Shown here: piece by piece, positions 46,300-64,000 of the stretch
Layout of the letters: every line of letters starts with the position of its first letter
Position numbering within the stretch: the stretch's first letter is position 1
Assembly (NCBI GenBank): GCA_019914995.1
Contig: CM034138.1
Span: 7,568,035-7,632,034, forward strand
Source of the DNA: Acanthochlamys bracteata
Lineage: Eukaryota > Streptophyta > Magnoliopsida > Pandanales > Velloziaceae
Length of the DNA: 64,000 nt
Direction of reading: 5' to 3'
The notes under the pieces: model-generated
What the model saw: the letters and a program-made list of their open reading frames with translations, nothing else
Database searches by the model: none
What the model was told of the DNA's origin: nothing
Position numbers and translations under genes: made by a program

Positions 46300-47544
46300 A
46301 GCATCAAAGTGAAACTTAGCTATAACTCCTCAATGCCGAAAGGGCTAGGTCATCAAATTGAAGTAAAATCCTATCTACTCCCCAAAAGACTGCAGTTACG
46401 CGTGTTTGTTGTTTGCAAAGCTACCAATATTGTGAACAATAGACACAACGAATCAAATCTAGTGTGCCCACTAACTAACAAAATTTGCAATGCTAGGGCG
46501 ACACTATCTGGATCTTCCATGGTTGCAACTTGATGCGCACTCTCAGTACTACTGGACAGCTTTGATCTTTTCTACCTTCAAATTCCTGGTTGAATTGCCT
46601 ACAGACACATTAAGAAAGAAAAGGAAAGAGCAAATAAACATTCAAAACATAACGAAAATGAAGAAGAACAAAATACTTCTACTGTCAAAGACTAGCGTGC
46701 TATATCTACCTTTAGATTTTGGTTACACATTAGACTTCTCGTTTAGTTGCAAGTGCTGTTTGTGTAATTCTTAGATAAGGAAGAGATGGACTATGCCGCA
46801 GCAACATAGAAGCATCTTCAACATTCTAGATACAGCAAATTCCAATAAAGTAAATAAAGAGAGAGAGAGAGAGAAAAATAAAAGAAAAACAATTTCGTCA
46901 ATGCATTTCAACCACTAGAAACATAACACTCCAGTTGAGTACTCTCTACCGAGTAGTCAAGTCATTCTCGATTGCTCGAAATACTACTACAAATCAAGTG
47001 CTAGCTAAATATATTTCTAAACTTATCCTGATAACAGGATCGAGCTATTACGTCTAGACAGAAAGCAATACGTAGAATCTCTGTTCAGAACGAACTTAAC
47101 ATGGTAGGAAATAGAGCTTGCATAATGATTTTATGAGCACTATATTTTAAAAAGAAAGTATAACCGCAAAGGGTTAGAAAAAATCGTAATGATGCATGCT
47201 TAGGATGGAAAAATCTAATTTCTAAAAGGAAAAAAAAAGAAAGCGTGATTCCGAAATGATTTCAGATGTCATTTACAGAAAAACACTGGATATCAATTCA
47301 CTGATGAAGTTAATTAGCACAAAATAACCAGGTAACCCAAACCAAACAATTGAAAAAATCTCAAATAAAACCTGATCAATTCATCTCAAATCGGAGAGAG
47401 CTTCCAATGTGTTCAAGCTGAGGTTGTCGATTTGGACTTGGAGATTATGTGGACGAATCCAGCCTGCAACAGCAGAGTCGCCGTCAGCGCCGCCTCTGTC
47501 CGCTTGTCTTCTTCTTCCCCTTCTCCTCCTTCACCGGCGGCAAC
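46300..47544 (-). other. Possible minus-strand gene interrupted by the CACTA insertion
   Basis: Minus-strand segments with splice-like edges lie at 47544-47371 (GC-rich, ending GATCAG then GT), about 46,830-46,760 (NVEDASMLLRHSPSLPYLR) and about 46,590-46,500 (KRSKLSSSTESAHQVATMED). The first is GC-rich and abuts the transposon. No family is recognised and phases were not proven, so this is a hint of a gene rather than a model. Confidence 0.25.
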
Positions 47545-47562
47545 CACTACTACAAATAATGG
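47545..47562 (+). repeat. Left terminal inverted repeat of CACTA
   Basis: CACTACTACAAATAATGG; the first 11 bases match the right end exactly on the opposite strand. Preceded by AAC. Confidence 0.92.
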
Positions 47563-47564
47563 AT

Positions 47565-48140
47565 TCACCGACTGAATAAACAAGTCGGTAAATTGAACAA
47601 TTCAGTCGGCAAATATATTTACCGACTGAAAAAATAACAGTCGGTAAATCGTCGACAAATACAGGTCGGTAAATCAATTAACGACCAATCCCAATAATCA
47701 GTCGATAGTGTACAGTAAATTATCGGCTGAAGGAGCAGTCAGGAATTACCGACTATGGAAGTTGTCGGTAGTCAGGAAAGCCTGTCGGTAGATTGTCGAC
47801 AAAAATTTCAGTCAGCATATTCCGACCAACGCAGCAGTCGGTATATTTCGACAGACTCTCTAGTCGGTAATTGCCGACTGCTTTTTCGGTTGGCAAATAC
47901 TGACGGGTTGTTTTAGTTGGTAATTTATCGAAAGTTAGCGACTAACATTTTGGTCGGCAATTGCCGACAGCATTTTTAGTTGGTAATTTACCTACTAGTG
48001 AGGTGGTCGGCAATCCGTCTAGCATGTTGGTCGGTAATTTCCGACTTTCGGCCTGGTCTGCTAGTCGGTAGATTTAGCCACCACTATTTCAGTCGGTATT
48101 TTGTTTTTCTCGTTCGTTTGCCGACTGAGTGATGTGCAGT
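47565..48140. repeat. Left subterminal repeat zone of CACTA
   Basis: More than 20 copies of ACCGACTG / CAGTCGGTAA and close variants in both orientations, often as facing pairs separated by 10-20 bp. In En/Spm such motifs are bound by the TNPA-type protein. Confidence 0.9.
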
Positions 48141-48284
48141 CGATAAATTGTGAATTTTGTTCAGAAGCATTGCTGTTTTTTAGTAATTTATATATAAATA
48201 ATATTTTCATTCACATTATTCAATTTAATTGAACACAACATTCAACACAAATGATTTCAAGAAAAAAAAGTACTTACATTCATT

Positions 48285-48354
48285 GAAAATACATAATAAA
48301 TCAATTATAATTCAGTTTTGAAATGCATCCATACATATTTCATCTTATACATTC
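48285..48354 (+). repeat. 70-bp direct repeat, left copy
   Basis: GAAAATACATAATAAATCAA through ATTTCATCTTATACATTC, the same length as 54591-54660 with only a handful of differences. It brackets the captured gene cargo on the left. Confidence 0.85.
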
Positions 48355-48527
48355 CTGATGGATAGCTATTTGGCATTTGACATCACATCAATTCCATACT
48401 AAGAATATTTATTGCAGTGTAGAACTTCATATTACTATAATTTTTTACAGAATTCAGTTTGTGAAAATGTAGCAAAATTAAGATTCAAACCGCACCATAT
48501 TAGGAAGCTCCTACAGCAGGGAGGCAT

Positions 48528-48640
48528 TCACCGAAGGCCTTCAGCAATGTAGTAACATTCTTCTTCGGGAAAATATCCATTGCTGCACTGTCCTCCTGGC
48601 CCAACTGCTGACCAGCTCTGCAATTTGTTAATGGCCTGAT
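48528..48640 (-). pseudogene. Exon-like fragment of unidentified gene in the cargo
   Basis: On the minus strand an acceptor-like CATATCAG precedes an open stretch. One frame reads AINKLQSWSAVGPGGQCSNG and stops; another reads DIFPKKNVTTLLKAFGECLP, which looks more protein-like. I could not match either to a family. It lies beyond the GS exons at the left edge of the cargo. Confidence 0.3.
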
Positions 48641-49847
48641 ATGGAAAGAAGAATGTTACAATAAAACTTGGCCAGAGTCTCTTAAGCACATCAATATGTA
48701 CATCCAGCAAATACAGATAATTACAATTAATGAAGCATCAAATATATTGTTGACAAGATGGGGGAAAAAATCAGAATCCCTGATGCATTTACTTATGACA
48801 ACTACTTACACCATGGACTGCAAGTAAGAAAAGATCTTAGCAAGGAAGTAAAAAGAAGACACTGCCACCGACTCGACTAGTTAAAAAATTCCTTGAAAAG
48901 CAAATATGGGAATCGAGCAAGTCTTTTTTGGTTCTTCAAGATGAGGTGCCAAAGCATTGATCAAGAAAGATCTCCTTTTGCTATTATATGATCATGGCAT
49001 AATCAGAATAAAAGTCAATATACGCAAGCTATACCATCGTCTTTTAAGTTAATTAAAGAAGGTAACATTGTCAAATGTTGATCAGATAATTTCCAAGTAT
49101 AAAAAAGAGAAAAACGATACTTTGATAGGCATGTCCACATCTTTGAACTAATGATATTGATGACACTGCAAACCAAGCTTCAAATGCACTGTGTGCTATC
49201 CTCTCTACTCAAATGGATTTATATCAAATCACCATGAAAAACTTATCTAACAGTACCATACAAATAACATATTCAATTATTAAACACAAAAATCAGATAC
49301 CCTAAGTAATATGAAAGATGTTATTAAAAGACGAAAATGAAATCAGTTTCTGCTCCACATTAAAATATATATTTGCTCTATACAAAGAACTCCTGCATAA
49401 AATAACTCTAGAAGAGTACATATGTATGGAGCGCGGGAGAAAATTGGTTGCATCTACTTTGTCCAGCAAATCCATTTTCAGACATCATAAAGCAAAATTT
49501 GTAAAGCAAAAAGCTATAAAGGCTCTGTTAGAACTAGGCAACCAGTTTGTGGCATTAAGGGTGAGGTCATAAAAATGATGCTCCCATAACTTGTTCCCAA
49601 GTATGTCCCAAGCCAAGGAGCAAAGCACAATAAAACAGGTAAATTCATATTATCTAAAATCATTAGTTTTTATTATCACTTAAATAAAACGTTTAAATCT
49701 ACATATTAAAGATACCATTTAATTCATCTAGATGCTTAAGTTCATAACACCATGCTAACCAAAAATGTCCTATAACTGTATTACGCAAAGGAAATCTAGA
49801 ATTTCAAGTTAACTGTTTTTTCTGACATGTGATTAAAGATAGCATAC

Positions 49848-51990
49848 CTTGCGAATTGCAATGATGGCAGTCAGAAGGTTGCAACAATTATATCTTTCAA
49901 AACCACATCTTCAGTGAGAGCTTGCACAGACTCTGACAAATCCTTTGGCAGCCGTTTGACCTCCATAACATGAGTACCTGGATCTGTTTCTGTTCAAATA
50001 GAGTATTTATTAGCTAACATTCCAAGCATCAACAAATATTTAAATGAACAAAATGTTAACTTCTCCTTTAATAATGAAAGGGCATCATACGAGTTACTCT
50101 ATCATGTCAGATGTAAAAATCAAGAGTCCGAGTGTCAATGCAAAGTTATATCATTGTAACTTTTGCAGATGTGATTCTAAATTATTTCCTTTCCCCAACG
50201 ATCAACCAAAAAATTCAGAGTACAAAGCTTGATTTGATGCTTATGAGCAGTTTGTTGAAAAAGAAAGAAATAACATCGTAGTGCTGTTTGGCTAGCTAAT
50301 GCTTTTCCAAAAGACATACTTAAAGTTTCTAGAAGGCCCATAGGCAAGTGATGCTCAGCGTTTGATTACCAAGAGACATAAATAAAGATAAATCAGGCAG
50401 TACGTTATTATCCAAATCAAGCTAAGTATTAGTGGTTTATTTAAGTATTAACTTAATAAACACATTTTTCTGTATGCAATAAAAGTATACTCTCAAAATT
50501 TCAGAACTATATTAGAGCAGAAGAAGTGAAGCAGGACCATACCAACAGGCTCAGGCAAACTGAAACCTCTTCTAAGACCATCAATTCCAGCAGCTAAAAT
50601 TGCAGCTAGTCCCAGGTGTGGATTTGCACAGGAGTCAAAAGGCTTGATCTCAAAGTTGCTTACAAGCTCATTAGATATACCAGGTGGGCATGTGGTTCTC
50701 AGAGGGGCTTCCTTATTTTCTTTTCCCCAGCAGTGGAAGGCTCCACTCCACATATTCGGTTGAATGCAGTCGTAACTACATTCGAAATAATCAAATTATC
50801 ACAAACTTAATTAACAATCAACATGAGATAACCAACATACTGTAGCCATTTTAGAATGATGAATAGATAGGTGGAGAGATGCAGTAATTATGGAGCTCTA
50901 TGATTAGAGGCCTTAAGTAACTCGAAATGACTGAAAAGAAATTTGCAGAGATGCTCTTCCCAAGGCACCATCAGTCATATGTCACCATTAGCACTACCAT
51001 TGAGCCATTGATGAATGGAGCTTGATAGTTTATGTAATTGAGCAACAGCATGATGAGTGACTGCCTCTCAATAGAAAATCTCTCCTTAAATAAAGTGTAG
51101 GACACCAATAAGAAAGAACAACAAGACTACTGAGCAACTTGGACGAAAACATCACTTTTTCATGATCATAGAGATCAGTTTTGACACATCCCTATTGCTG
51201 ACTTATAATGTTAAAATTTAAAAGAAGGGTGAACAAGAAAAGCAAAAAATAACTAGGTCACAGAAGCAGAGTTTAAATGAACCAACAGGCATATCCAATC
51301 CATTTGCACTGAAAGTACTAAAGCAAGCAGCTCCACCTAATTGGCATGTGTACAGGGAACGATGTTCGCAGATAAATTAAATAATCAGGGACAGAGGAAA
51401 TAAAGTTCACCTATTTGGAATTGGAGCTATAAAAGCTAGGATTGCAGGAAGATGATTGAAAACTCCAGCCATAAAGTGCTCTCCAATAATCGACATTCCA
51501 TGTTGAGTTTTTGATATCTCAGATTCCATATTGGAAATTAATCATATATGAGCCAAGAGCAAACATGAGTCTATACTAATTTGACCTCTTAAAATCTAAT
51601 TCTGACAACTATTAGCTTCAAAGAGCACAAATGAACAACAGTTTCACTTAGGATATAAAATATAATAAAATGAAATGTATTCATCCAAATTCATTCTTCC
51701 AAGTGCAGTGAAGTAAGTAAAGATGAAGAAAACTAATCCTGAGTAAACTCACTTTGGAACAAAAGTTGCAAGTAAACCATGCTTCCTAGCAATAGCCCTT
51801 ATAACTTCACGAACAAAAACAATGTTATCAGCAGCAATTGTGCAGGCTGTATGCCCAAATGATAATTCAAACTGTCCTTTCCCAGCTTCTGCATGCAGCT
51901 ATAGGATAACAAGAGTTTACTTAGAGAAAATATTTACATGCACAGTATTCAAAAGAATCATAATTTCAGAAAGATATTGAGCTGAACCTC
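49848..51990 (-). pseudogene. Captured fragment of type-I glutamine-synthetase-like gene (NodGS/FluG family)
   Basis: Exons on the minus strand: a stub ending about 51982 (EVQ), 51898-51753 (LHAEAGKGQFELSFGHTAC, ending LLATFVPK), 51519-51411 (FMAGVFNHLPAILAFIAPIP), 50775-50543 (MWSGAFHCWGKENKEAPLR, FDSCANPHLGLAAILAAG) and 49989-49848 (EVKRLPKDLSESVQAL). They follow the order of the GS catalytic domain in NodGS/FluG proteins. The exon that should carry the conserved GSGSHVH motif between FVPK and FMAG was not found. The donor after EVQ reads CT instead of GT. The last exon shifts frame before LLTAIIAIRK. The N-terminal amidohydrolase half is absent. This is a non-functional captured copy. Confidence 0.85.
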
Positions 51991-52273
51991 CAACCCGGTA
52001 CCCTCAAAGGCTGTAATACATGGAACATATTTGCAAAAGCGATCAACACCTGCAAGTGGCAAAGCACAACAATGAATTGAAAAGTCATACAAGAGAACCC
52101 AGAGAAAAACACTAAGACCATACCTGAAAGTTGCTACCATCCAGGAGGGGGGGGGGGACTGTAAGGTCCAAAAGCCAGTTAGCAAACAATCTAAAGTATG
52201 GCCTTGGATTGAAAAATGTTTTCTTTTCCTCTGCATCCTTTATGAGGACTTTCACAGTCACCGAGAGAATCTG
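51991..52273 (-). pseudogene. Captured fragment of CCR4-NOT scaffold gene NOT1
   Basis: NOT1 is the scaffold of the CCR4-NOT mRNA deadenylase complex. The minus-strand exon 52273-52124 encodes KVLIKDAEEKK then FNPRPYFRLFANWLLDLT and ends LLDGSNFQ before GTATGG. It contains a run of 12 or more G (C on the coding strand) where the family has an ordinary coding stretch. The next exon starts at 52049 after TTGCAG and reads VLIAFANMFHVLQPLRVPG, a good match to the family. It then runs without an intron into GS-like sequence at about 51,990. Only two exons of a protein of over 2000 residues are present. Confidence 0.85.
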
Positions 52274-52974
52274 CTAGTTAGAAAAGACAAACACAAAACA
52301 ACTTCATGACATATGTTCTAAACTTCATCAAAGTGTATGTAGCATCAATCCAACCTTGGATAGTAGGGGGACAGCTTTACTTGATCCTTGATCCAGTTGA
52401 CAGTTCTGACAGCAGAAGTGGGTATAAGAATAGATGGGCAGAAGGTGTAGTTCTAACTTGCTGCAGCGGGAATCTAAGTAGGAGTCTGAGAGACCAAACT
52501 TGTGTTACCTTCAAAATTAAAACCACAAGTTTCGCATAAGAGTCAATGCTCACAAAGAATAGATGTGTCTTCATTACTGTAGGAGGGGGATTACAAGCTC
52601 ACTGTTAATATGCGAAAGAAATGTTCTGTTATGTCATCTCCTTTAAGCCAAACACTCTGATGCAATTGTGAGACATAATGAGTATATACCTTGCCCTATC
52701 AGCTGCAACAATCTGTTTCTAAATGCAACAATCCTTCCTAAATTGAGAGGTATAGACTCTCACTTAAAGAGTTGCAGCAGTTCTATGGCTCCAACAATCT
52801 CAATTTCTAAATGCAACCTACTAACACAACCCGTAGAAAAGCACAACTATCAAAATAAAAGAAAAATAATGACAAAGTAAATTTGATGAAGGTTTCACAC
52901 AAAACAACGATTTTCACGTACTCATATTGGGCAAGCATATAAAGATTAACCACCTCTAAGTGAAGAAAACATAC

Positions 52975-54176
52975 TTCATTTCTTAATGTCTTGATGAAAC
53001 AGTCAATAGTGTTCTTATAGGCTGAATCTCCCATCATTCTGGACTTCACCTGAAGCAAATAAAAGCAATTACCAATAAGTTATTAAGAGATTATGATGAA
53101 ACATGCAATCACTTAATAGTTGAAACAATTTTCTTATGCTGAAGCACTTGGAGGCCATTATCTGAGGACTAGCCAGAAAGCTTACCACATCAACGGGCGA
53201 GCCAATGCAAACTGCAAAAAAGCCAGCCCCCAAACCAGCTAAAAGATGTGTGACTACATTATCTGTAAATCCAGGAACTTTCAAGATTGCCTGCATCAAA
53301 CGTACAAGTTCTAGGAGCAAAGTAAGCCAATGAAAGATGAAAACGATCAAGCTGTATTGAATGATGTATACGGTTTACAAAAAAATTACCTCTTTTATTT
53401 GGTCATAGCTAGCCAGTTCAGCAGCATTTATAATTGCATTTTGTGCAACATTAGGACCCAGGCCAGTCCAAAGTGCACCAAGTCCTTCCTATATTCAGAA
53501 AACCAAACTCAGATAGGCATGGAATATGCCTATCAAACATTGTTATCTCAAAGTACGAACCTGTTTGAAAAATTGTTGAATAAGCATTTAGCGCTCCAGA
53601 ATAACGTCTTGGTACACCAGGAGGAAGCTTTCCTTCTGCTTGAAGTCGCACTTTCACCAGATCAGTTGGATTAGCAACTGCAATTGCTAGAGCACCTATC
53701 AATGCAAGAAATCCAATTAGGCAAAGGAAATAGATTGGCCGACACAGATTTATCATATCCAGTACTTAATTCCTACATGCCTGTGGTCAGGCCAGCAAGA
53801 ATTTTCTTAGTCAAAGGAATGTCTCCGACAAAATTGTCACCCACAAAAAAAGATTTTACCTGCAATAAAACATTATAAGAACATGGGGAAAAAAAGCAAC
53901 AATGTGTACAGGACTTTCGTCTGAAGGAAACTGAAACTACCGGATCATACAAGCCAATTCTCAGGCCTCCATATATGCATTGACGATGTAGCCCAGGTAT
54001 GATCCCCTTCCATAGTGCAGCAAGGCCTTCTTCTCTCCCGATAGTTGCAACTGTATCCAACAAGCCCCTGTATTTGGGGCCAGCAATGGATTCTAATCCA
54101 GTTTTCCTCTGTAGCTGAAGTCTAACTTTTGCTGTGTCCAAATGTATAGTGCAAAGCTGCCAGGCATACAGAGCAA
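52975..54176 (-). pseudogene. Captured fragment of mitochondrial uncoupling protein gene (UCP/PUMP)
   Basis: UCPs are inner-membrane carriers that dissipate the proton gradient. Six minus-strand exons: 54176-53941 (DTAKVRLQLQ, YRGLLDTVATI, LWKGIIPGLHRQ), 53859-53781 (DIPLTKKILAGLTTG), 53695-53561 ([27 protein letters not shown]), 53488-53390 ([20 protein letters not shown]), 53290-53186 (PGFTDNVVTHLLAGL, GSPVDV) and 53049-52975 (VKSRMMGDS, IDCFIKTL). The first exon and the final exon or exons are missing. The first carrier signature has His in place of the invariant Pro (HLDTAK). One intron starts GC instead of GT. Exon 3 has one extra base before its donor. It is therefore a truncated, decaying copy with introns retained, so it was captured from genomic DNA rather than mRNA. 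Confidence 0.92.
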
Positions 54177-54590
54177 GTAAGAAACAAATAACTCACTCAA
54201 ACGATCCCAAGCTCAACAGGGCCTCTAAGCATCTCAATGGACAAAGGTGAAAACTCTCGGCTGACAATAGGGTGGCATCCACCGCGACGCCACATATATC
54301 TTCTAAAGAATTTTACGATGTATGATGTAGGGAGATCACAGATGCAACACCACTCATCATAGAGGAGAGAAACCTAGAAGACCAACAACTAATTCAGTGG
54401 TAAGACAATAGAAACCTGCCTCTAGATGATAAGTACGAAATATTAATCCAGAAGGAAAAAAACGAAGAAACACACATTCAACAAAGAATCAAATCTAAGA
54501 CTGCTAGCCTGTGGAATTTCACATATTTAAGCACTTATAACTAGTAAATTTAGCAAAAATTTTTCTACACTCAAATTACCAAAGAAGATT

Positions 54591-54660
54591 GAAAATGCAT
54601 AATAAACCAATTACAATTCAGTTTTGAAATGCATCCATACATATATCAACTCATACATTC
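54591..54660 (+). repeat. 70-bp direct repeat, right copy
   Basis: GAAAATGCATAATAAACCAA through ATATCAACTCATACATTC, partner of 48285-48354. It brackets the captured cargo on the right, next to the transposase genes. Confidence 0.85.
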
Positions 54661-55132
54661 AAATACGATGAGTAAAGGGAAAAACAATAATTTACTTGCA
54701 ACGAAGCACCGTTGCTATATCTGAAAAGCACTCCTGCAACCAATAAAGCAAAAAAATATTTTATCATGCCATATGAAGCAATCCTTCTCTAGAAAAGAAC
54801 AAAATCCTAACATGCATACAATGAGTTCAAGTGGAATGTTCATAGCAGCTTGGATTGAAATCTGCATAAAAAATGAAAAATAAGAAACAGTATATTCCAT
54901 GCCTAGGACAAAAAAATTATTAGAAGCTATAAAATTAAGAAAAATCTTTTCGAATGCTGGAAACGCAATCCATCTAAGCTTAGAAAACATCTAACTTCAA
55001 CAGAATAAAGTTAAAGGCTACTAAAAATTAGAATAACATATAATGCATGATCATTAGAAGCAACATAAAAAACACTCGAAAAAGGGGAACACTAATATAG
55101 ATGAAATAAAGTAAGAAAAGATAATGAACTTA

Positions 55133-56713
55133 CTATATAGGTGGTCCAGTATCGTTTTTTAGCTTTCCGAACATCTCCATTAGAAATGATACCTTTTTTT
55201 CATTTTCACGAAGGCGTTGTCTAGTCTCTTGCAGTTCATTTTGTTGCTTCTCAAATTCAGACTGTTGTTTCTCAAGCTCAGATTGTTGTTTCGCAAGTTC
55301 AGCTTGTTGTCTTTCATTTTTTTCCTCTAGGGTTACAATCTGATCTTTCAAAAAAGAATTCTCATATATATGGGTTGATGAACCAGCAAAACGGGTGCTA
55401 GGCGGCTTAGGTCCACGTCCACGTCCACAAATATATCCACGTGCCTTCCTAAGCACCGATAGACATATGTCTTCGTCATCGACGTCGTTTCCATCCTCTT
55501 AGGACTTGATTTGCATTTCTACCATTTGATTCTGCATTTCACTCAAAACAAAATATCTTAGCAAATTATAAACCTCAACTCTTATGGGTACTTGCTTAAA
55601 AAATTGAATAAAAATGTCATAACTTATATAATTTGATTGTGATTCCTCCGATACCTAACTGCCCTTCTTTTCTTTTGCATTTGAAATATGTGTCTCCTTA
55701 TACAAGTCAATACAATTGGCATTCTGCAAATTTGTTAAGAGAATTAATTTGCTATTAATTAGAATCCTATCGTCTTTGTTATATTAAAACCAAAACTATA
55801 AATAAATACTTTCTCCCGTTGTATAGATGCGAACGTGCGTGATCCTGCTGTATGCTTACTATTATTCTTTGCTCGAGCAGCTTTTGCTTTTTCCGATTTT
55901 TTCTGTATATAACCAAAAAATGATAAGGATAATCTCCAGCAAGTCCACAAAAAAAATTCAAAGAAAAAATTGATCAAAGAAATCTTACGATCCATTCTGG
56001 CGAATCAAACATGTCGCATAGCCAGATCCATTCTTCACGCCGTGCTGCTGTAGAAGTGAAGTCCTTATAAGGGTTTGCTCGAGCTCTGTCTCCACCACCG
56101 ACACTCTTATAGTAGTCATGGCACTCATAACGCCAATCCTTATATCTCTCGGATCCTGTATTATGTAAACAAGCCAAGGTTCCGGGATGGGACAAATCTA
56201 GCTCAAACTTATCCTGTGATAATAAGAAAAAACTTGTTAACAAATGCTAACCCTTAATAATGTATATAAACTAATAATAAAATACTTACAGCCATCATGG
56301 AATAAATCTCGTTTTTAATAGATTTGTCAATATTACTCCAACCGTTAATATTCTTTACTGGAGCATTAGTACGAATCAAATATGCCATCTCTCTTGCGAA
56401 CCAAACAGCATATTCACCGACTGGTCTCTATGCCATCGGGAATTTCGACCTTGACTTTCTTCTTATTTCTCAAAATATACATTTCTTAATCACTACATCT
56501 GTTGCCGGCACGTGGATGTTGTGTTTGTGTATCAACAGACCCTACTTAATTAGAGAACAACTGTTAGGTTCACTAATTAGTATATAATAATTTAATTAAA
56601 AGAAACAAACTTACCACTGCTAGAGCCATTAGGATCTTGAGTCTCCAAATCAACGATATTCTGATTTGGTTGTAGTGATAGTCGTCTTCGACTAGAGGTT
56701 ACCGGCCCCATAA
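55133..56713 (-). pseudogene. Ptta/En/Spm-type (Transposase_24) gene of the CACTA element
   Basis: This is the second CACTA gene, the likely counterpart of the DNA-binding TNPA. The start is at about 56713 (MGPVTSSRRRLSLQPN) with a donor at 56605. Exon 2 has WFAREMAYLIRT and WSNIDKSIKNEIYSMMA, but its beginning is out of frame (stops near VEIPDGIETS). Then come 56220-56000 (CHDYYKSVGG, TAARREEWIWLCDMF), 55895-55800 (KKSEKAKAARAKN, KHTAGSRTF) and 55456-55133. The last has a glutamine-rich coiled coil (QQAELAKQQSELEKQQSE) and RGRGPKP. The HTAGSRTF block is characteristic of the family. The frameshift in exon 2 makes it unlikely to be functional. Confidence 0.8.
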
Positions 56714-56872
56714 AGATAAATTAATAGAAGATACCTGTATACAAAGTTTAAAAAATAAAATTTAGAATTAGAAATGAAATAGATTAAAATAATTAAACAA
56801 GATTGAGTTAAAACTCACATGTGATTAATTCATTCGCAATCATCATCACTACGACTATACTCGTCCGAATTT

Positions 56873-59800
56873 TTATTGCTCGTCCAAAACATCAATCACT
56901 TCATGATCAAGTTCAACTATCTTATTTAGATGATCTATTTCCATATTATCATCTCTGACTCTTACGGTTGAACTTTCCACTTCTTGATAAGCAGTATTCT
57001 CTCCCATTATCACATCATCACCAATATTTGTGTCTTCGTCATCGCAACCCTCTCCAAACAACGAGGGATGAAATAAATATCGATGTTGTGATTGTTGTAC
57101 AACAACCCAATCATTACCATGCTTTGTATCAGGAACATAAAATACTTGAGTCACATTCATAGGAAACACGAATGGATAATTTTGGTACCATTTCTTTGCA
57201 ATGTTGATGCTAGTAAAGTCATCATCAATCCTGATGGGTTTTCTGTGATCTAAGTCAAACCATTCACACTTGAATAAAAAGACTTGATGTCCCCTAGGAT
57301 ATGTCAAAATCAAGACATCATTCAGTACAGCATAGAAATTTAAAATTTGATCTTTATGATATCCTTGCACACAGATTCCACTATTTTGAGTCAACAAGCG
57401 ATGTTCGCATTTGTATGTGAGAAATTTCACTCCATTGACGATGCATCCAGAATACCTAATGGCACGTCTATCTGGACCAAGTGCTAATGAATGTAGATCA
57501 TCTGCATTCTCTTGCGTACTGACATAAATATGTCTCATCTATAATAAAAATATATAAAAAATAAGTATTTTAAAAAAATATTGGCCATAACTAAAATCTC
57601 AAATTCAATATATCTGTATATATTGATATAATATTTCATACTCGACTTTTAAACCACGTAGCAAATCCATCTCTTTGCCTTGTTTCTAAATTAAGTGGAC
57701 TCTCAACTTTGAGAAGCTCCTCATGCTCACTGTAAACATTCTTTAGTAAGTCACTTGCAATCTTATACAGTATTAATGACAAAAGTCCTTAAATTAGAGA
57801 ACATTTTAAAATTGTAAATACTTACTTGAGATATGGAATGACTTCATCGTAGTTATTTAAGACAAACCAATGTGCTAAATTGTATTCCTCTTTTGTGAGG
57901 AGAATTTGGTTTGCCTTACCTAAGGGTCGAACCTTTTGAGAAAATACAGATAATGTTGTATCCACCTGTTTCTCTCCATCTTTATGTCGTTCTTGTCGAT
58001 TAAATCGAGTATCCAATCCTCGCAAGTATCTAGAGCAAAAAATAAGACACTCATTTACTATGTAAGATTCTGCTATGGAGCCTTCTGGACGTGCTCTATT
58101 ACGAACGGACGCCTTAAGCGTACCAAGAGTCCTACAAATATAGATGAAATGCGAATTTTTATATGATTCCAATAGAAAAGTAAATGAGAAATTTGAGATT
58201 CTCATAATAAAATTCACCTCTCTATAGGATACATCCATCTATAATGAACAAGACCTCCCTTGATAGCTTCATCCGGCAAGTGTACAACTAAATGTATCAT
58301 GATATCAAAAAATGCCGGAGGAAATATCATCTCAAGCTTGCAAAGAATAACCACAATGTTATGCTGTAACTCTCTCAATCCATCCAATTTTAGAGTCTTT
58401 GCACATAATTCTCTGAAAAATCTTCCAAGTTCACTAATTACTTCTAACACTTCTTTTTTGAGATACCAACGTAAACCAATAGGCAGTAAGCGCTGCAACA
58501 TTACATGATTATCATGACTCTTCAAACCCGAGATTCTACCATCCACCATATTTACACATCTCAAAATATTTGCAGCATACCCATCAGAAAATCTTACAGA
58601 CATAAGAAATTCACAAAATTTTCTTCTTTCCTGAGATGATAATATGTAGGCCGCAATCGGTTTCTCCCACTTATTGGAATCCAATTTCTTTGTATGCAGC
58701 TCACGTCGTATACCTAGATCTTCTAGGTCCCAACGAGCCTTCAGAGTATCCTTCGTTTTCTTATCTATATTCATCAAAGTTCCCAAGATGTTGTCACAAA
58801 TATTTTTCTCGATATGCATGACATCAAGATTGTGATGAAATAATAGATCCTTCCAATATGGTAGTTCAAAAAGAATACTTCTTTTGGTCCAATTAAGCTC
58901 CTCGGATGTGCGCTTCCTCTTCTTACCACATATAGGCTTTCCAAACTTCACGTCTTTAACAATATTCATCTGTTCTAACAATTCATCAACTGACAATGTA
59001 GGAGGTGGTGATGTTGCTTCTTGCTTTCCATTGAATTTTTTACTCCTTCTATATGGATGGTTGCTCGGCAAATAGCGACGGTGGCCGAGATAACCAATTT
59101 TGTCTCTAAGTTTGACAGAATATGTATATTTGTTACATATGGGACATGCCAAGTAGCCTTTTGTGCTTCACCCGGATAAAACTTCATATGTAGGAAAATC
59201 ATTTACGGTCCATAGAACAGCTGCATGCAATTGAAATATAGTATTGAAGACGGCGTCATATGTTGAAACTCCGTTCTCCCACAGCTCCCTCAAATTCTTC
59301 AATTAGTGGCTGAAGATATACATCAATGTCTCTACCAGGTGATTTTTTTTCTAGAATTAAAAGAGACATAATGAAGTATGGCTCTTTCATGCACATCCAT
59401 GGAGGTCAATTGTACGGCATTAAAATAACAGGCCAGCAGCTATATGCATTGCTCATATCTTCAAAAGGATTGAATCCATCAGTCGCCAAGCCAAGTCGTA
59501 AGTTTCGAGCATCACTAGCAAACCATGGAAACTTCACATCAAAATCCTTCCAAGCCTCAGCATTTGCAGGATGTCTCAAAATCTCAGGGTTATCTACACG
59601 TTTCTCCTTATGCCATCTCATATCTAAAGCCGTCTTTTTTGACATGTAAAATCGTCGCAGTCTAGGCACTATTGGAAAATGACGAAGCACTTTCTTGGAA
59701 ACCTTCTTATCAGTGCCATCATTAACCTTCCACCTTGATGAATTGCATTCTGGGCACTTCTCCTCATTTACTAACTCCTTCCTAAAAAGAACACAATCAT

Positions 59801-60497
59801 TCTCGCATGCAGCAATAGGTTCCCATCCCAAACCTAAATCCCTTAAAATCTTTCTACATTGATAGTAAGACGAAGGAAGCAAATGCCCTTTCGGAAATGC
59901 ATCATTCAAAAGATCAAGCAGCATATTAAAACCTTTGTTGCTCCAACGATTAAGCACCTTAACATGCAGCAATTTTATGAGGAATGATAATTTTGAAATC
60001 GTACATCCCTCATACAATGGCTTCTCGACATCTTCGAGCAACTTATCATATCTATTAATATCATCTGCCGCAACTGAAGACCCTTCACCAACAAGGGGCG
60101 GACCTGTGTCGCCCTCCGTAGCTACTTGAGGGATATTTAAAACCACAACACCACTCATGCGTATATCCTCCAAAATTTCAAACATTTCATCATATTCTTC
60201 GTCTTCAATAGGTCTCATTGGAGTCTCATCTCTACGAGAACCAAGACTTTGGTTATCTTGATGAGTGACTTCTCCATGTAAGTTCCATCTCGTGTAAGAC
60301 GCCATAAAACCATTCACAAGTAAATGCATGTATACCACATCGAGCATGTTTGAATATCTATTCAAACAACGTCGATATGGACAATACATCTCGCTAACAT
60401 TCTACAAATGATCTTTAGCAAATTGCATAAAGGAGCGGACTCCATTTGTATACTCCTCCGACAACTTATCGGGATTATACATCCAACTCTTATCCAT
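56873..60497 (-). pseudogene. TNP2-type CACTA transposase, broken
   Basis: The catalytic transposase of En/Spm elements. The start is at 60497 (MDKSWMYNPDKLSEEYTNG), opening a transposase-associated domain. Transposase_21 blocks follow (LGLGWEPIAACENDC, SNAYSCWPVILMPYN, LPYWKDLLFHHNLDVMHIEK). DUF4218 comes next at 58430-57990 (ELCAKTLKLDGLRELQ, VHYRWMYPIER, then after an intron LGTLKASVRNRARPEGS). An exon near 57,740-57,640 reads LETRQRDGFATWFK. DUF4216 lies at 57538-56873 (WYQNYPFVFPMNVTQVFYV). Defects: TAG at 60402-60404 after FAKDH-L, TGA at about 59,409 after MPYN, a frame change near 59,290, and TGA at about 59,170 before STKGYLACPIC. The protein cannot be made in one piece. Confidence 0.9.
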
Positions 60498-60639
60498 CCT
60501 ATTTCATAATAATCCACATTAGCCGGAGTAGAATATACGTACATTATTACATTCGTTTGAAAATATATTATTTACTTTAATAATTAATACTTACCATATA
60601 CACGTATGTGTACGATATATATATATATATATTTATATC

Positions 60640-61745
60640 ACTACTACAAGTTCTCTTACGGCAGGGTTGATGAATTTTATTGTTAGAGAGCGATAGAGTT
60701 TTGAGGAGAGGCGATAGATAATGTTTTGTTAAAGAAGTGATGAGGGGGAGTTTTACTCAAAGAGGCGGTAGAATTTTTGTTAAGGAGGGGAAGCGGATGA
60801 ATTTTTTTGTTAGGGCGATTAGAATGTTTTTTTTGTTAGAGGCGATAAGGGAGAGTTTTACTATATTAGGAGGACAATAGGGGGGAGTTCTCCTACGGCA
60901 GGGTTGATAATTTTTTTGTTAAGAGGCGAGTAAAGTTTTGTTAAGAGGAGGGGGGGTAGTAGGGGAGTTTTACTTTAGCAAGAGGCGTTAGGGGGGGGAC
61001 TTTTCTGGCGGGGTTGATGAATTTTGTTGTTAAGGGGGTAGTAGAGTTTTGTTAAGAGGCGATAGATAATGTTTTGTTAAGGGGGCGATGGGGAGTTCTC
61101 CTCACCACAGGTTGATAATTTTTTTTATTAAGGGCGAGTAAAGTTTTGTTGGGGGGGGAGGGGGGTAGTAGGGGGGAGTTTTACTATAGCAAGAAGAGGC
61201 GATAGGAGAGGGGGACTTTCCTCTGGCGGTGTTGATGAATTTTTTGTTAAGGGGGTAGTAGAGTTTTTTGTTAGAAGCGATAGAAATGTTTTGTTAAGGA
61301 GGCAGAGTAAAAATGTTTTGTTAAGAGGCGAGGGGGAGTTTTACTACTGAGGAGTGATGGGGAGGAGTTTTTACTGTTGAGGGGGTGAGGGGAGAGTTTC
61401 TACATAGTTCAATAGCAACATATCCTACAGTAGGCTGCTTCAAAAAATTCATAAACAGTTAAAACATTCCACAAAAATTGTTTAACTTTGTCAAAAAAAA
61501 CATGCCACAAAAATTCTTCCTACAGCAGGGTCTACAAACAGCAAGCACATGAGTTTTTTTTTTGGAAGAGGGGAGGGGAAGGTTCATACAGCAGGGGGAG
61601 AGCTAGAGAGAGTTTCCTACAGCAGAAGATGGGGGTGGGGGAGGAGAGCTTCCTACAGTAGGGGGAGAGGGAGGCTTTCCTACAGCAGCTTGTTCCAAAA
61701 AATTCTTCCTACAGGGAGACTTTCCTACAGCAGGCTATCAACACC
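60640..61745 (+). repeat. G-rich degenerate repeat block inside the CACTA element
   Basis: Two linked patterns. At 60,650-61,390 AGTTTTGTTAAGAGGCGATA, GTTGATGAATTTTTTGTTAAG and GGGGGAGTTTTACT recur. GTTGATGAATTT occurs at about 60,667, 61,013 and 61,223, alternating with GTTGATAATTTT at 60,904 and 61,110, a higher-order period near 206-210 bp in the later part. At 61,500-61,740 TTTCCTACAGCAGGG recurs. C is very rare on the plus strand in the first part, an extreme G/T over C bias. Many runs of four to nine G occur. Confidence 0.8.
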
Positions 61746-61989
61746 TTTCAAAAAGCTATGCAAGATTCATACATTTAGATAGAAATAAAAACAAATCACC
61801 AACACATTTCTATGAATAGCATACAACTAACGCAACTGCAGGTTCTGGATCAAAGATCACTTCAATAATCACTCATATCATAAGCTCATAAATTCTAAGC
61901 AGCAAACTAAGCTACAAAGAACAGTGTGACTAAATCATTAACATATTAACAGTGTGAACTGACACTTGCATTTTTACTTTCAAATTAGC

Positions 61990-62245
61990 AGTTGAAGATG
62001 AACACCTAGATGCTTACCTATTTCCGGCGGGATGACAGCGGCGGTTGTGCAATTTCCGGCAAGACAGCGGCTCCAACGAAATCCAGCGAGATGGAGCTCA
62101 ATCTGGCGAGATGGAGACCGAATTAGAACGGCTAGCGTCGGACGGCAGCAATTCCGGCGAGATGGAGTTGGATCTCACCTGCAGACTTCCCAATCACCGG
62201 CAAGAGAAGAGCTCCGGCGAAAACCTAGAAATTTAGGATAGAGAG
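61990..62245 (-). other. GC-rich leader of the transposase transcription unit
   Basis: GC-rich patch between the subterminal repeats and the G-rich block, with repeated TCCGGCGAGATGGAG. CACTA elements commonly have a GC-rich first exon here, and splicing across the G-rich block to TNP2 would fit. The plus-strand open frames in this patch are shadows. Confidence 0.4.
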
Positions 62246-62284
62246 AAAATGACGGGGTAGCTAGTTCGAGTTGGGTTTACTTAG

Positions 62285-62859
62285 ACAAATTACCGACGGA
62301 CAGAAAGTCAGTTGGTAAAATGCCGACACAATATATAACTTAGTCGGTATTCCAACGAAACTACCGACTGAGAAAATCCACAGTCGGTAAAATTGAAAAA
62401 ACTTACCGACTGAGATCGTAAATAGTCGGTAACTATATAAACTTACCGACTGCCATAATAACCAGTCGGTAAAGCACGTACCCTATACCGACTGACAAGA
62501 AAACCCGTCGGTAATTCGCATCCATTATCGACAGTAAGGGTTCGCAGTCAGTAACACGTACACAATCGAAGTAATATATACAGGTCCAAAACTTTGCTTG
62601 CAAACACATTACCGACTGATGTTGTACACAGTCGGTAAAGGATGTCAAATACCGACTCGCATAGAATACCGTCGGTAATATACCGACTAACTCTACCGTA
62701 GTCGGTAATTTGTTTATATTTCCGACTGACTTGTTGCGTAGTCGGTAATGTTATAGAACATACAGACTACTTATTTTTCAGTCGGTATCGAAAGAATTTA
62801 CCCACTGAATGTCGTCAGTCGGTAATATTCAGTCGGTAATTCTGTTTATTGTAGTAGTG
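62285..62859. repeat. Right subterminal repeats and terminal inverted repeat of CACTA
   Basis: About two dozen ACCGACTG / CAGTCGGTAA motifs in facing pairs, ending in TTATTGTAGTAGTG (right terminus, last base 62859), then AAC. Confidence 0.92.
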
Positions 62860-64000
62860 AACATCTCTCTTCAAATATTTATTTTTCCTTTCTCACTATA
62901 CACATCACGCTTGCAACTTAAGCGGCTCTATTTTGCGAATAATCAACCGAATTCTCCTTAATAATCATACTTGTCGTTATTAACTTTGTACCAGAGAGCA
63001 GACAATCTTCTTATTGTGTTTGAAACGGTACAGAAAAGCAACTTCAAGAGTAACTTAGTACCGCGTTCGAAATTACTTATAAATAAAATTTTTTTAAAAA
63101 ATAAGTTTTATTTTTATTTAAAAAATAATAAAAATAAATAAATAATGAAAATTTTTATTATATAAAACTTCTTTATATTTAAAAAAATTCAATAAAATTT
63201 TAATAATTTATAAAAAATATAAAATAAAACAATAAAAATCTTCCTAAACGAATTTTCAAACGCACACTAACTTTGTTGTATATGTGATTCTCGATCTTCT
63301 TGACTTCAGTACTTCGTTTGTCGAGATAGTTGTAGCTTTAAGAACCACTTAGCGTGCCTATAGTATTATGTTTTCATTTTTTTCTCCATGCAGTTGTATT
63401 TATATGCTATGCTAATACTTTTTTGCTACCACATGCTTTAATATGTTCCTATACATGATTTTGATTGGTGAACAGTGAACACCCCCATAGAATTATTTTC
63501 CTCTGTTTTTTCTTTCTAAATGGGTAATTAATCTAAGCTGTAATAGTGATGATACTTAGCACTAGGCACCAGAGCTTAATATATATTTTGTCTTTGAATG
63601 ATTAAAGTGGTGTTAACGTACATATGCCAATTTTCTTCTTTAGTATTAAACCTGCCAACTAATCTCTTCAATCTTTTATTATGCGTGTTTCTTATCGAGC
63701 TATGAATTTGAACACAAAAGCAGCACAAAGGCATCACATGTTCTTATTTGGTACATATATATTTTTTAATTTGATAACTTTTGTTATAGATGCTTATTAA
63801 TTTTCAAGTCTAAGTCATTACAAGGATGAAAAACAAAAGATTAAACAACTAGTTTTGCATTTGCTTTCTTTTTCTGAGTAACTTGGACTCCATATTTACT
63901 TGTTTAGACTGATCCTTAGGTTACCTAGCTGTTTGTTTCTTATGCTATTTGTGACAGCATAAATTAGGAGGGAGATTACCTCTATTATAATGAGTGTGTT
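62860..64000. other. Flank right of the CACTA, no gene
   Basis: AT-rich sequence without a recognisable frame. On the minus strand the first 100 bp would lie immediately upstream of the possible gene at 46.3-47.5 kb before the insertion. Confidence 0.4.
63060..63265. mobile_element. AT-rich MITE, family copy 4 (inverted)
   Basis: The reverse complement begins GTGTGCGTTTGAAAATTCG. Its core (TTATTATTTTTTAAATAAAAA) matches the core of copies 2 and 3. Confidence 0.5.

Follow-up and report, generated by a model that had tools for sequence, protein, structure and literature searches.

Multi-gene CACTA elements, Pack-CACTA elements, stepwise capture of genes by Helitrons and capture by gap filling are already known (here and below, statements about cited papers refer to parts of those papers). 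In soybean Tgm-Express1, CACTA ends enclose fragments of five unrelated genes, introns included (PMC1947982), and because exons of these fragments are spliced into one transcript, a single strand is implied. Pack-CACTA elements of Arabidopsis and elsewhere carry host gene DNA between CACTA terminal inverted repeats (TIRs) (PMC8903248, PMC13317346). Transposase-bearing CACTA elements with a host gene fragment are known from Chenopodium, where the fragment lies in the 5' region (PMC8978399), and from grapevine, as Cactavine-5 (PMC2528002). The gap-filling Pack-TIR elements of animals show single-copy captures, microhomology at the edges and an internal position in the transposon (PMC8277862), and related maize Helitrons share some fragments and differ in others, which has been read as sequential capture (PMC3288121). 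We describe an element that resembles each of these: a CACTA transposon in a 64,000-nucleotide stretch of the Acanthochlamys bracteata genome (the window, to which coordinates without a contig label refer), in which the first layer of captured DNA fits the tandem insertion proposed for Pack-CACTAs.

Tandem fusion and gap repair are competing accounts of how TIR transposons take up genes, and the debate has mostly drawn on finished elements. The A. bracteata genome holds a series of related elements that are empty, or carry one gene, several genes, or patches inside patches, with the donors at hand and with divergence that differs by layer; the fusion and gap-repair models can therefore be tested layer by layer. 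Probably, this CACTA lineage gained host-gene DNA in layers, at one place between its left arm and its transposase region.

The element and its cargo

The element occupies positions 47545-62859 (15,315 bp) on contig C13 (C1, C2 and so on are labels of genome contigs). An 11-bp perfect TIR starting CACTA, CACTACTACAA, stands at 47545 and 62859, the first 34 bp of the two ends agree at 28 positions, and an AAC target-site duplication flanks both ends (47542-47544 and 62860-62862). The motif CCGACT/AGTCGG occurs 13 times in the left 636 bp and 18 times in the right 579 bp, compared with once in the 6,233-bp cargo; these subterminal repeats, with the TIRs, belong to the outer left arm (47545-48354) and to the right end (62280-62859). 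CACTA TIRs, a 3-bp duplication, subterminal repeat arrays and a tnp2 transposase together identify a CACTA (En/Spm) element. An earlier reading of the window, made from sequence only (the sequence-only reading), had proposed one element with intact termini and an AAC duplication, and this is borne out. The same reading named termini from different elements as the observation that would speak against it; the AAC and the perfect 11-bp repeat are present on both sides, though the two arms differ in their closest relatives, as described below.

The cargo consists of pieces of five unrelated host genes, in the order ATX-like, sucrose-phosphate synthase (SPS), NOT1, glutamine-synthetase-like (GS), NOT1, uncoupling protein (UCP), NOT1, all on the minus strand. 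The UCP, NOT1 and GS-like fragments seen in the sequence-only reading are thus real, while its count of three genes was too low, ATX and SPS having been missed. A whole-genome search with 48140-55130 as query gave 86 listed matches, and 40 of 77 candidates were scored. The donor loci, for which a search of the same genome had been proposed, were all located there: the best-matching donors lie on C1 (GS), C15 (UCP), C2 (NOT1), C3 (SPS) and C14 (ATX), none of the five being on C13.

The GS patch (49694-51939) matches C1 at 99% in two parts (49694-51529 to C1:14087237-14089073; 51532-51939 to C1:14086587-14086995); Gln-synt_C was found in two open reading frames (ORFs) within 50493-51898, and the C1 locus bears a glutamine synthetase catalytic domain. 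The UCP patch (52692-54326) matches C15 at 96-97%, again in two parts (52692-53373 to C15:7298905-7299602; 53366-54326 to C15:7300117-7301067). Three ORFs within 53069-54192 match Mito_carr, one of these matches falling below the Pfam cut-off, and the best PDB match of the UCP piece is uncoupling protein 2 (E=9e-26).

NOT1 is represented by five pieces over 48565-49697, 51935-52691 and 54323-54591, with 88-96% DNA identity (gaps counted) to C2: fragments a (48565-49212; C2:2162147-2162854), b (49211-49697; C2:2160627-2161108), c (51935-52556; C2:2159814-2160442), d (52555-52691; C2:2159552-2159689) and e (54323-54591; C2:2159282-2159544). The cargo peptide by itself gives a weak Pfam match (E=0.015, below the cut-off). 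All four Not1-domain matches found in the genome fall in the C2 locus, an exon of which matches human CNOT1 structures (E=8e-15), and the identity of the fragments is settled because their DNA matches the sole Not1-domain locus found in the genome search. C2:2159282-2162854 was considered as a sister element and rejected, since this stretch is the NOT1 gene.

The two remaining fragments are short. The 130-bp SPS fragment (48439-48568) is 91% identical to its C3 donor (TIGR02468, E=2e-95), and the 92-bp ATX-like fragment (48350-48441) is 90% identical to a PHD-finger gene on C14 (PF13831, E=6e-11; zf-HC5HC2H_2, E=3e-8), for which ATX-like is a putative name. An extension of the left arm to 48441 was rejected, 48350-48441 being ATX sequence. 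In the ATX-like donor (locus L053), 300 bp (L053:1201-1500) are absent from the captured copies, and no clear duplication was seen there.

Retention of introns, the common strand and the position downstream of the transposase are all as the sequence-only reading had claimed, and capture at the DNA level is supported. The fragments are probably untranslated passengers.

Nested fragments of different divergence

NOT1 resumes beyond the GS patch with the loss of just 184 bp of NOT1, and beyond the UCP patch with the loss of just 7 bp; GS and UCP therefore lie inside NOT1, and the cargo is nested rather than made of three separate blocks. Between NOT1 fragments a and b, 1,038 bp of the donor are absent, including two of its four Not1-domain matches. 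The GS patch lacks 241 bp of its donor, a gap that reaches into a conserved exon.

Comparison of the UCP patch with its donor shows an apparent gap of 514 bp (C15:7299603-7300116; L011:987-1500) in a donor intron. An internal deletion in the patch was rejected as the cause: the donor carries an insertion of ~506 bp, with imperfect terminal inverted repeats and an 8-bp duplication, that is absent from the element, so it is the donor that changed. The element therefore retains the older state, and the UCP capture is continuous. The donor insertion is independent evidence that UCP was not captured very recently.

Substitution relative to the donors is unequal among the large fragments: NOT1 has 81 changes in 2145 sites (3.8%), UCP 34 in 1633 (2.1%) and GS 23 in 2241 (1.0%) (Fisher P=1e-9 for NOT1 against GS, 0.003 for NOT1 against UCP and 0.0097 for UCP against GS).

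Related elements in the genome

When 20 family records, which represent 18 distinct elements, were mapped onto the arm, transposase and donor sequences, copies with target-site duplications were seen at many genomic positions. TTT, CAT and ATA duplications were found in the three other copies read at both ends (C15, C12 and C17:4875878); two copies were read at the left end only, and in one further copy the right end was sought and not found. In seven of the 18, the left arm runs straight into the following CACTA sequence. Four elements, including the present one, join arm position 810 to ATX position 2277, and five join ATX position ~857 to arm position ~627 at an inner junction; a sixth element also ends ATX at 857, the arm resuming at 719, and one element has no ATX. 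The NOT1 breakpoint C2:2158407 is identical in the elements at C12:4645000 and C15:7217697.

ATX, NOT1 and SPS recur variously in the relatives, where the same slot also holds alternative genes. The C12 element (11,334 bp) carries SPS, aconitase, NOT1 and ATX; that on C15 (18,194 bp) carries ATX, NOT1, pseudouridine synthase, NAC-alpha and aconitase; and that on C9 is tiled with SPS, NAC-alpha, aconitase, an unnamed gene, a pseudouridine-synthase gene, NOT1 and ATX. The other copies that the sequence-only reading had proposed to look for thus exist elsewhere in the genome. To its question whether cargo moves with the element, the answer is yes for ATX, NOT1 and SPS, which did move, since they are present in elements at other places. 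GS and UCP found no match among the scored candidates beyond their donors, weaker paralogs and the present copy, and may for that reason have been gained after the element landed.

Over 128 NOT1 columns, four substitutions are common to the C13 and C12 elements and absent from C15 and the donor. In a tree of 15 rows, midpoint-rooted only, one branch (support 99/97) sets off the NOT1 carriers and another (83/89) the empty elements, with the ATX-only elements between them. The outer arm of C17:4875878 clusters with the empty elements and its inner arm does not, a moderately supported pattern (93/88, 83/89) that agrees with an origin by fusion of two elements.

Three further features are recorded. 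In the C9 element, a 197-codon open frame (L042:512-1102, minus strand) fuses NAC-alpha (PF01849, E=1e-5) in frame to SPS (TIGR02468, E=7e-36), a possible chimeric protein made by capture; L042:841-2367, which starts inside this frame, is 99% identical in the C16 element. A ninth donor (L063, C14:6703300-6706800), which has neither name nor assigned strand, is captured in the C9, C16 and C17 elements. A stretch near the start of contig C14 (38708-38976) matches the left flank of the element (46651-46955) at 73-79% and is possibly a paralogous region; an empty insertion site sought there was not found, the left-flank match being only 73% and off the insertion point.

Mechanism of capture

Beyond the cargo, CACTA sequence resumes at 54588-55130, and its first 73 bp are 92% identical to 48282-48354. 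Directly repeated arm sequence (48282-48354 and 54588-54660) thus stands on either side of the cargo. The ATX layer has a full outer arm, host DNA and a 5'-truncated inner arm, the signature of fusion after tandem insertion. The edges of GS and UCP are different: NOT1 stands on both sides and no CACTA sequence is present, so there are no arm remnants beside each gene. Microhomology amounted to 17 bp over seven junctions, compared with 6.7 bp expected by chance (P=0.0008); two of the seven values were read by hand (NOT1|CACTA, 4 bp, using the C12 arm, and SPS|NOT1, 1 bp), and the arm|ATX, ATX|SPS and NOT1c|d junctions, the internal GS joint (filler) and the internal UCP joint (donor insertion) were excluded. 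Microhomology above chance, with no CACTA sequence at the edges of the later patches, fits gap-filling repair.

These features suggest a history of three steps. The left arm, an ATX-like stretch and a 5'-truncated second element would first have fused, by tandem insertion followed by aberrant excision or recombination, to give an element with cargo between duplicated arm copies. Breaks in this non-essential cargo would then have been filled with copies of unrelated chromosomal sequences by way of short homologies (gap filling similar to synthesis-dependent strand annealing), which would have placed NOT1, SPS, aconitase, NAC-alpha and pseudouridine synthase patches into various copies and, in the present copy, UCP and then GS into NOT1. 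Continuing internal deletions would meanwhile have eroded the older layers. Helper transposase, if needed, could have come from relatives, at least one of which retains an uninterrupted tnp2 ORF.

Several observations weigh against layered capture by this route. NOT1 itself is uneven, fragment a having 12 differences in 641 sites and fragments b-e 69 in 1504 (P=0.0019); because the pieces diverge unequally, a later recapture or gene conversion may have affected part of NOT1. More generally, gene conversion or differences in rate can distort divergence, and since no sister was found to span the GS or UCP sites, loss of these patches from sisters is countered by divergence alone. Among the junctions, NOT1|UCP, one of the seven tested, has 0 bp of homology, and the internal GS joint has a 2-bp filler. 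Animal gap filling favours donors on the same chromosome (59.8% intrachromosomal; PMC8277862), unlike the five donors here. Among relatives, the start of the inner arm varies among copies, one site of the 128 pairs C13 with C15 and not with C12, and the tree leaves the relationship of C13, C12 and C15 without resolution. With the root placed at the midpoint, it is an assumption that cargo was gained and not lost.

Strand of the captured genes

Strand can be assigned for eight captured genes, and every one of them has the orientation of the transposase (one-sided P=0.0039, two-sided P=0.0078): ATX, SPS, NOT1, GS and UCP in this element, and aconitase, NAC-alpha and pseudouridine synthase in its sisters, the ninth donor being left out. 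For this element taken by itself, the agreement is five of five (P=0.031). This agreement is a lead rather than a rule, because the gene fragment of grapevine Cactavine-5 runs in the opposite direction (PMC2528002). If it holds in larger samples, selection on the orientation of captured genes becomes measurable.

One tentative idea, which we regard as speculative, is that the site by the left arm acts as a self-dating slot. The first fused fragment would become the preferred landing site for later patches, so that captures nest, and patches would persist only or mainly in the transposase sense, because antisense housekeeping cargo would silence essential donors. If true, captured-gene strand in TIR elements would be under selection, and gene-capturing transposons would be filtered assemblers of sense-strand exons.

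The cargo might instead be functional, with sense housekeeping fragments serving as camouflage against silencing, or with chimeric or small RNAs tuning the donor genes. The strand agreement speaks for this, as do the camouflage proposed for CACTA in PMC8978399 and the splicing of Tgm-Express1 fragments into host transcripts (PMC1947982). We nevertheless consider a function unlikely, given the loss of conserved GS exon sequence and of half the Not1-domain matches described above, and the opposite orientation in Cactavine-5. C-to-T changes, considered as a sign of methylation, were rejected as such: they show no significant excess (40 against 29, P=0.23) and neither mark nor deny it.

Alternative origins

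Less probable still is that every capture arose by repeated tandem-insertion fusion, as in the Catoni model described for Pack-CACTA (PMC13317346, PMC8903248), in which two CACTA copies flank host DNA, lose their facing ends and move together. The bracketing of the whole cargo by arm sequence agrees with this, and the ATX layer fits it. Such fusions would, on the other hand, leave arm remnants beside each captured gene, while NOT1 borders GS and UCP on both sides, having lost only 184 and 7 bp there, and CACTA sequence is absent from the edges of the two patches.

A single capture event, for example from a pre-existing chimeric locus, with sisters later deleting parts of the cargo, seems very improbable. 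Internal deletions are indeed numerous in the sisters, and no sister extends across the GS or UCP sites; against this, the three donor divergences differ significantly, the sisters hold different host genes in the same slot, and the genome search, in which 40 of 77 candidates were scored, turned up no second GS-NOT1-UCP mosaic. An assembly artefact, to which the coincidence of the window end with the end of contig C13 might point, is scarcely credible, since target-site duplication and TIR are intact, the three large fragments are 1-4% substituted relative to their donors rather than identical, and junctions and older layers recur in elements on other contigs.

Arms and transposase region

The transposase region lies on the minus strand and matches the Pfam profiles PF13963, PF02992 (in two ORFs), DUF4218 and DUF4216. 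The tnp2 matches (PF02992, E=3e-26 and 2e-19) are each in a separate ORF, and the frame is broken into ORFs of 331 and 317 codons, with profile positions 61-140 in neither. Transpos_assoc with the N-terminal part of tnp2 is at 59406-60401, the C-terminal part of tnp2 with DUF4218 at 58214-59167, and the DUF4216 ORF at 56873-57538; a 121-codon coiled-coil-like ORF at 55133-55498 matches no Pfam family above the cut-off. An element at C9:5988421-5993918 (loci L022, L043) has an uninterrupted 761-codon tnp2 frame and is a candidate transposase source.

The closest relatives of the left arm are the C20, C12 and C6 elements, and those of the right arm are the C1 and C7 elements (81% alike); because the arms differ in this way, the element itself is recombinant. 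Within the right arm, 61735-61916 is 98-99% identical to the C1 and C7 elements, compared with 81% for the remainder, and is perhaps a recent exchange or another patch. Degenerate G-rich repeats of ~25-60 bp occupy 60642-61669 in the right part of the element. A genome pattern search with a guessed CACTA end, not that of this element, was uninformative (47 matches, 42 with the reversed control).

Comparison with known systems

The packFinder definition of Pack-TYPE elements requires that there be no transposase match (PMC8903248). Host coding DNA from five donors lies between the TIRs here, and the tnp2 match, though interrupted, exceeds 250 bp, so the name Pack-CACTA given in the sequence-only reading is not strictly applicable: the element behaves like a Pack-CACTA and is formally a gene-carrying CACTA. 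Pack-CACTAs are transposase-less by definition, whereas this element has a transposase region and later captures inside earlier cargo (PMC8903248, PMC13317346).

Tgm-Express1 is smaller (5.7 kb, compared with 15.3 kb including the transposase region here), and nesting, capture order and relatives with partial cargo, all of which are read here, are not given for it in the part of the paper drawn on (PMC1947982). The Chenopodium CACTAs and Cactavine-5 carry one gene, or pieces of it, per element (PMC8978399, PMC2528002), in Cactavine-5 in the opposite orientation (PMC2528002). Animal Pack-TIRs favour same-chromosome donors, which account for none of the five here (PMC8277862), and maize Helitrons are not TIR elements, their capture mechanism being called unknown in PMC3288121. 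Nested or ordered capture in a CACTA family was not found in the titles or abstract openings searched, a coverage that leaves out most subscription journals. Nor did these searches show a CACTA lineage like the present one, which combines nested layers with identified donors, relative ages and two signatures of capture.

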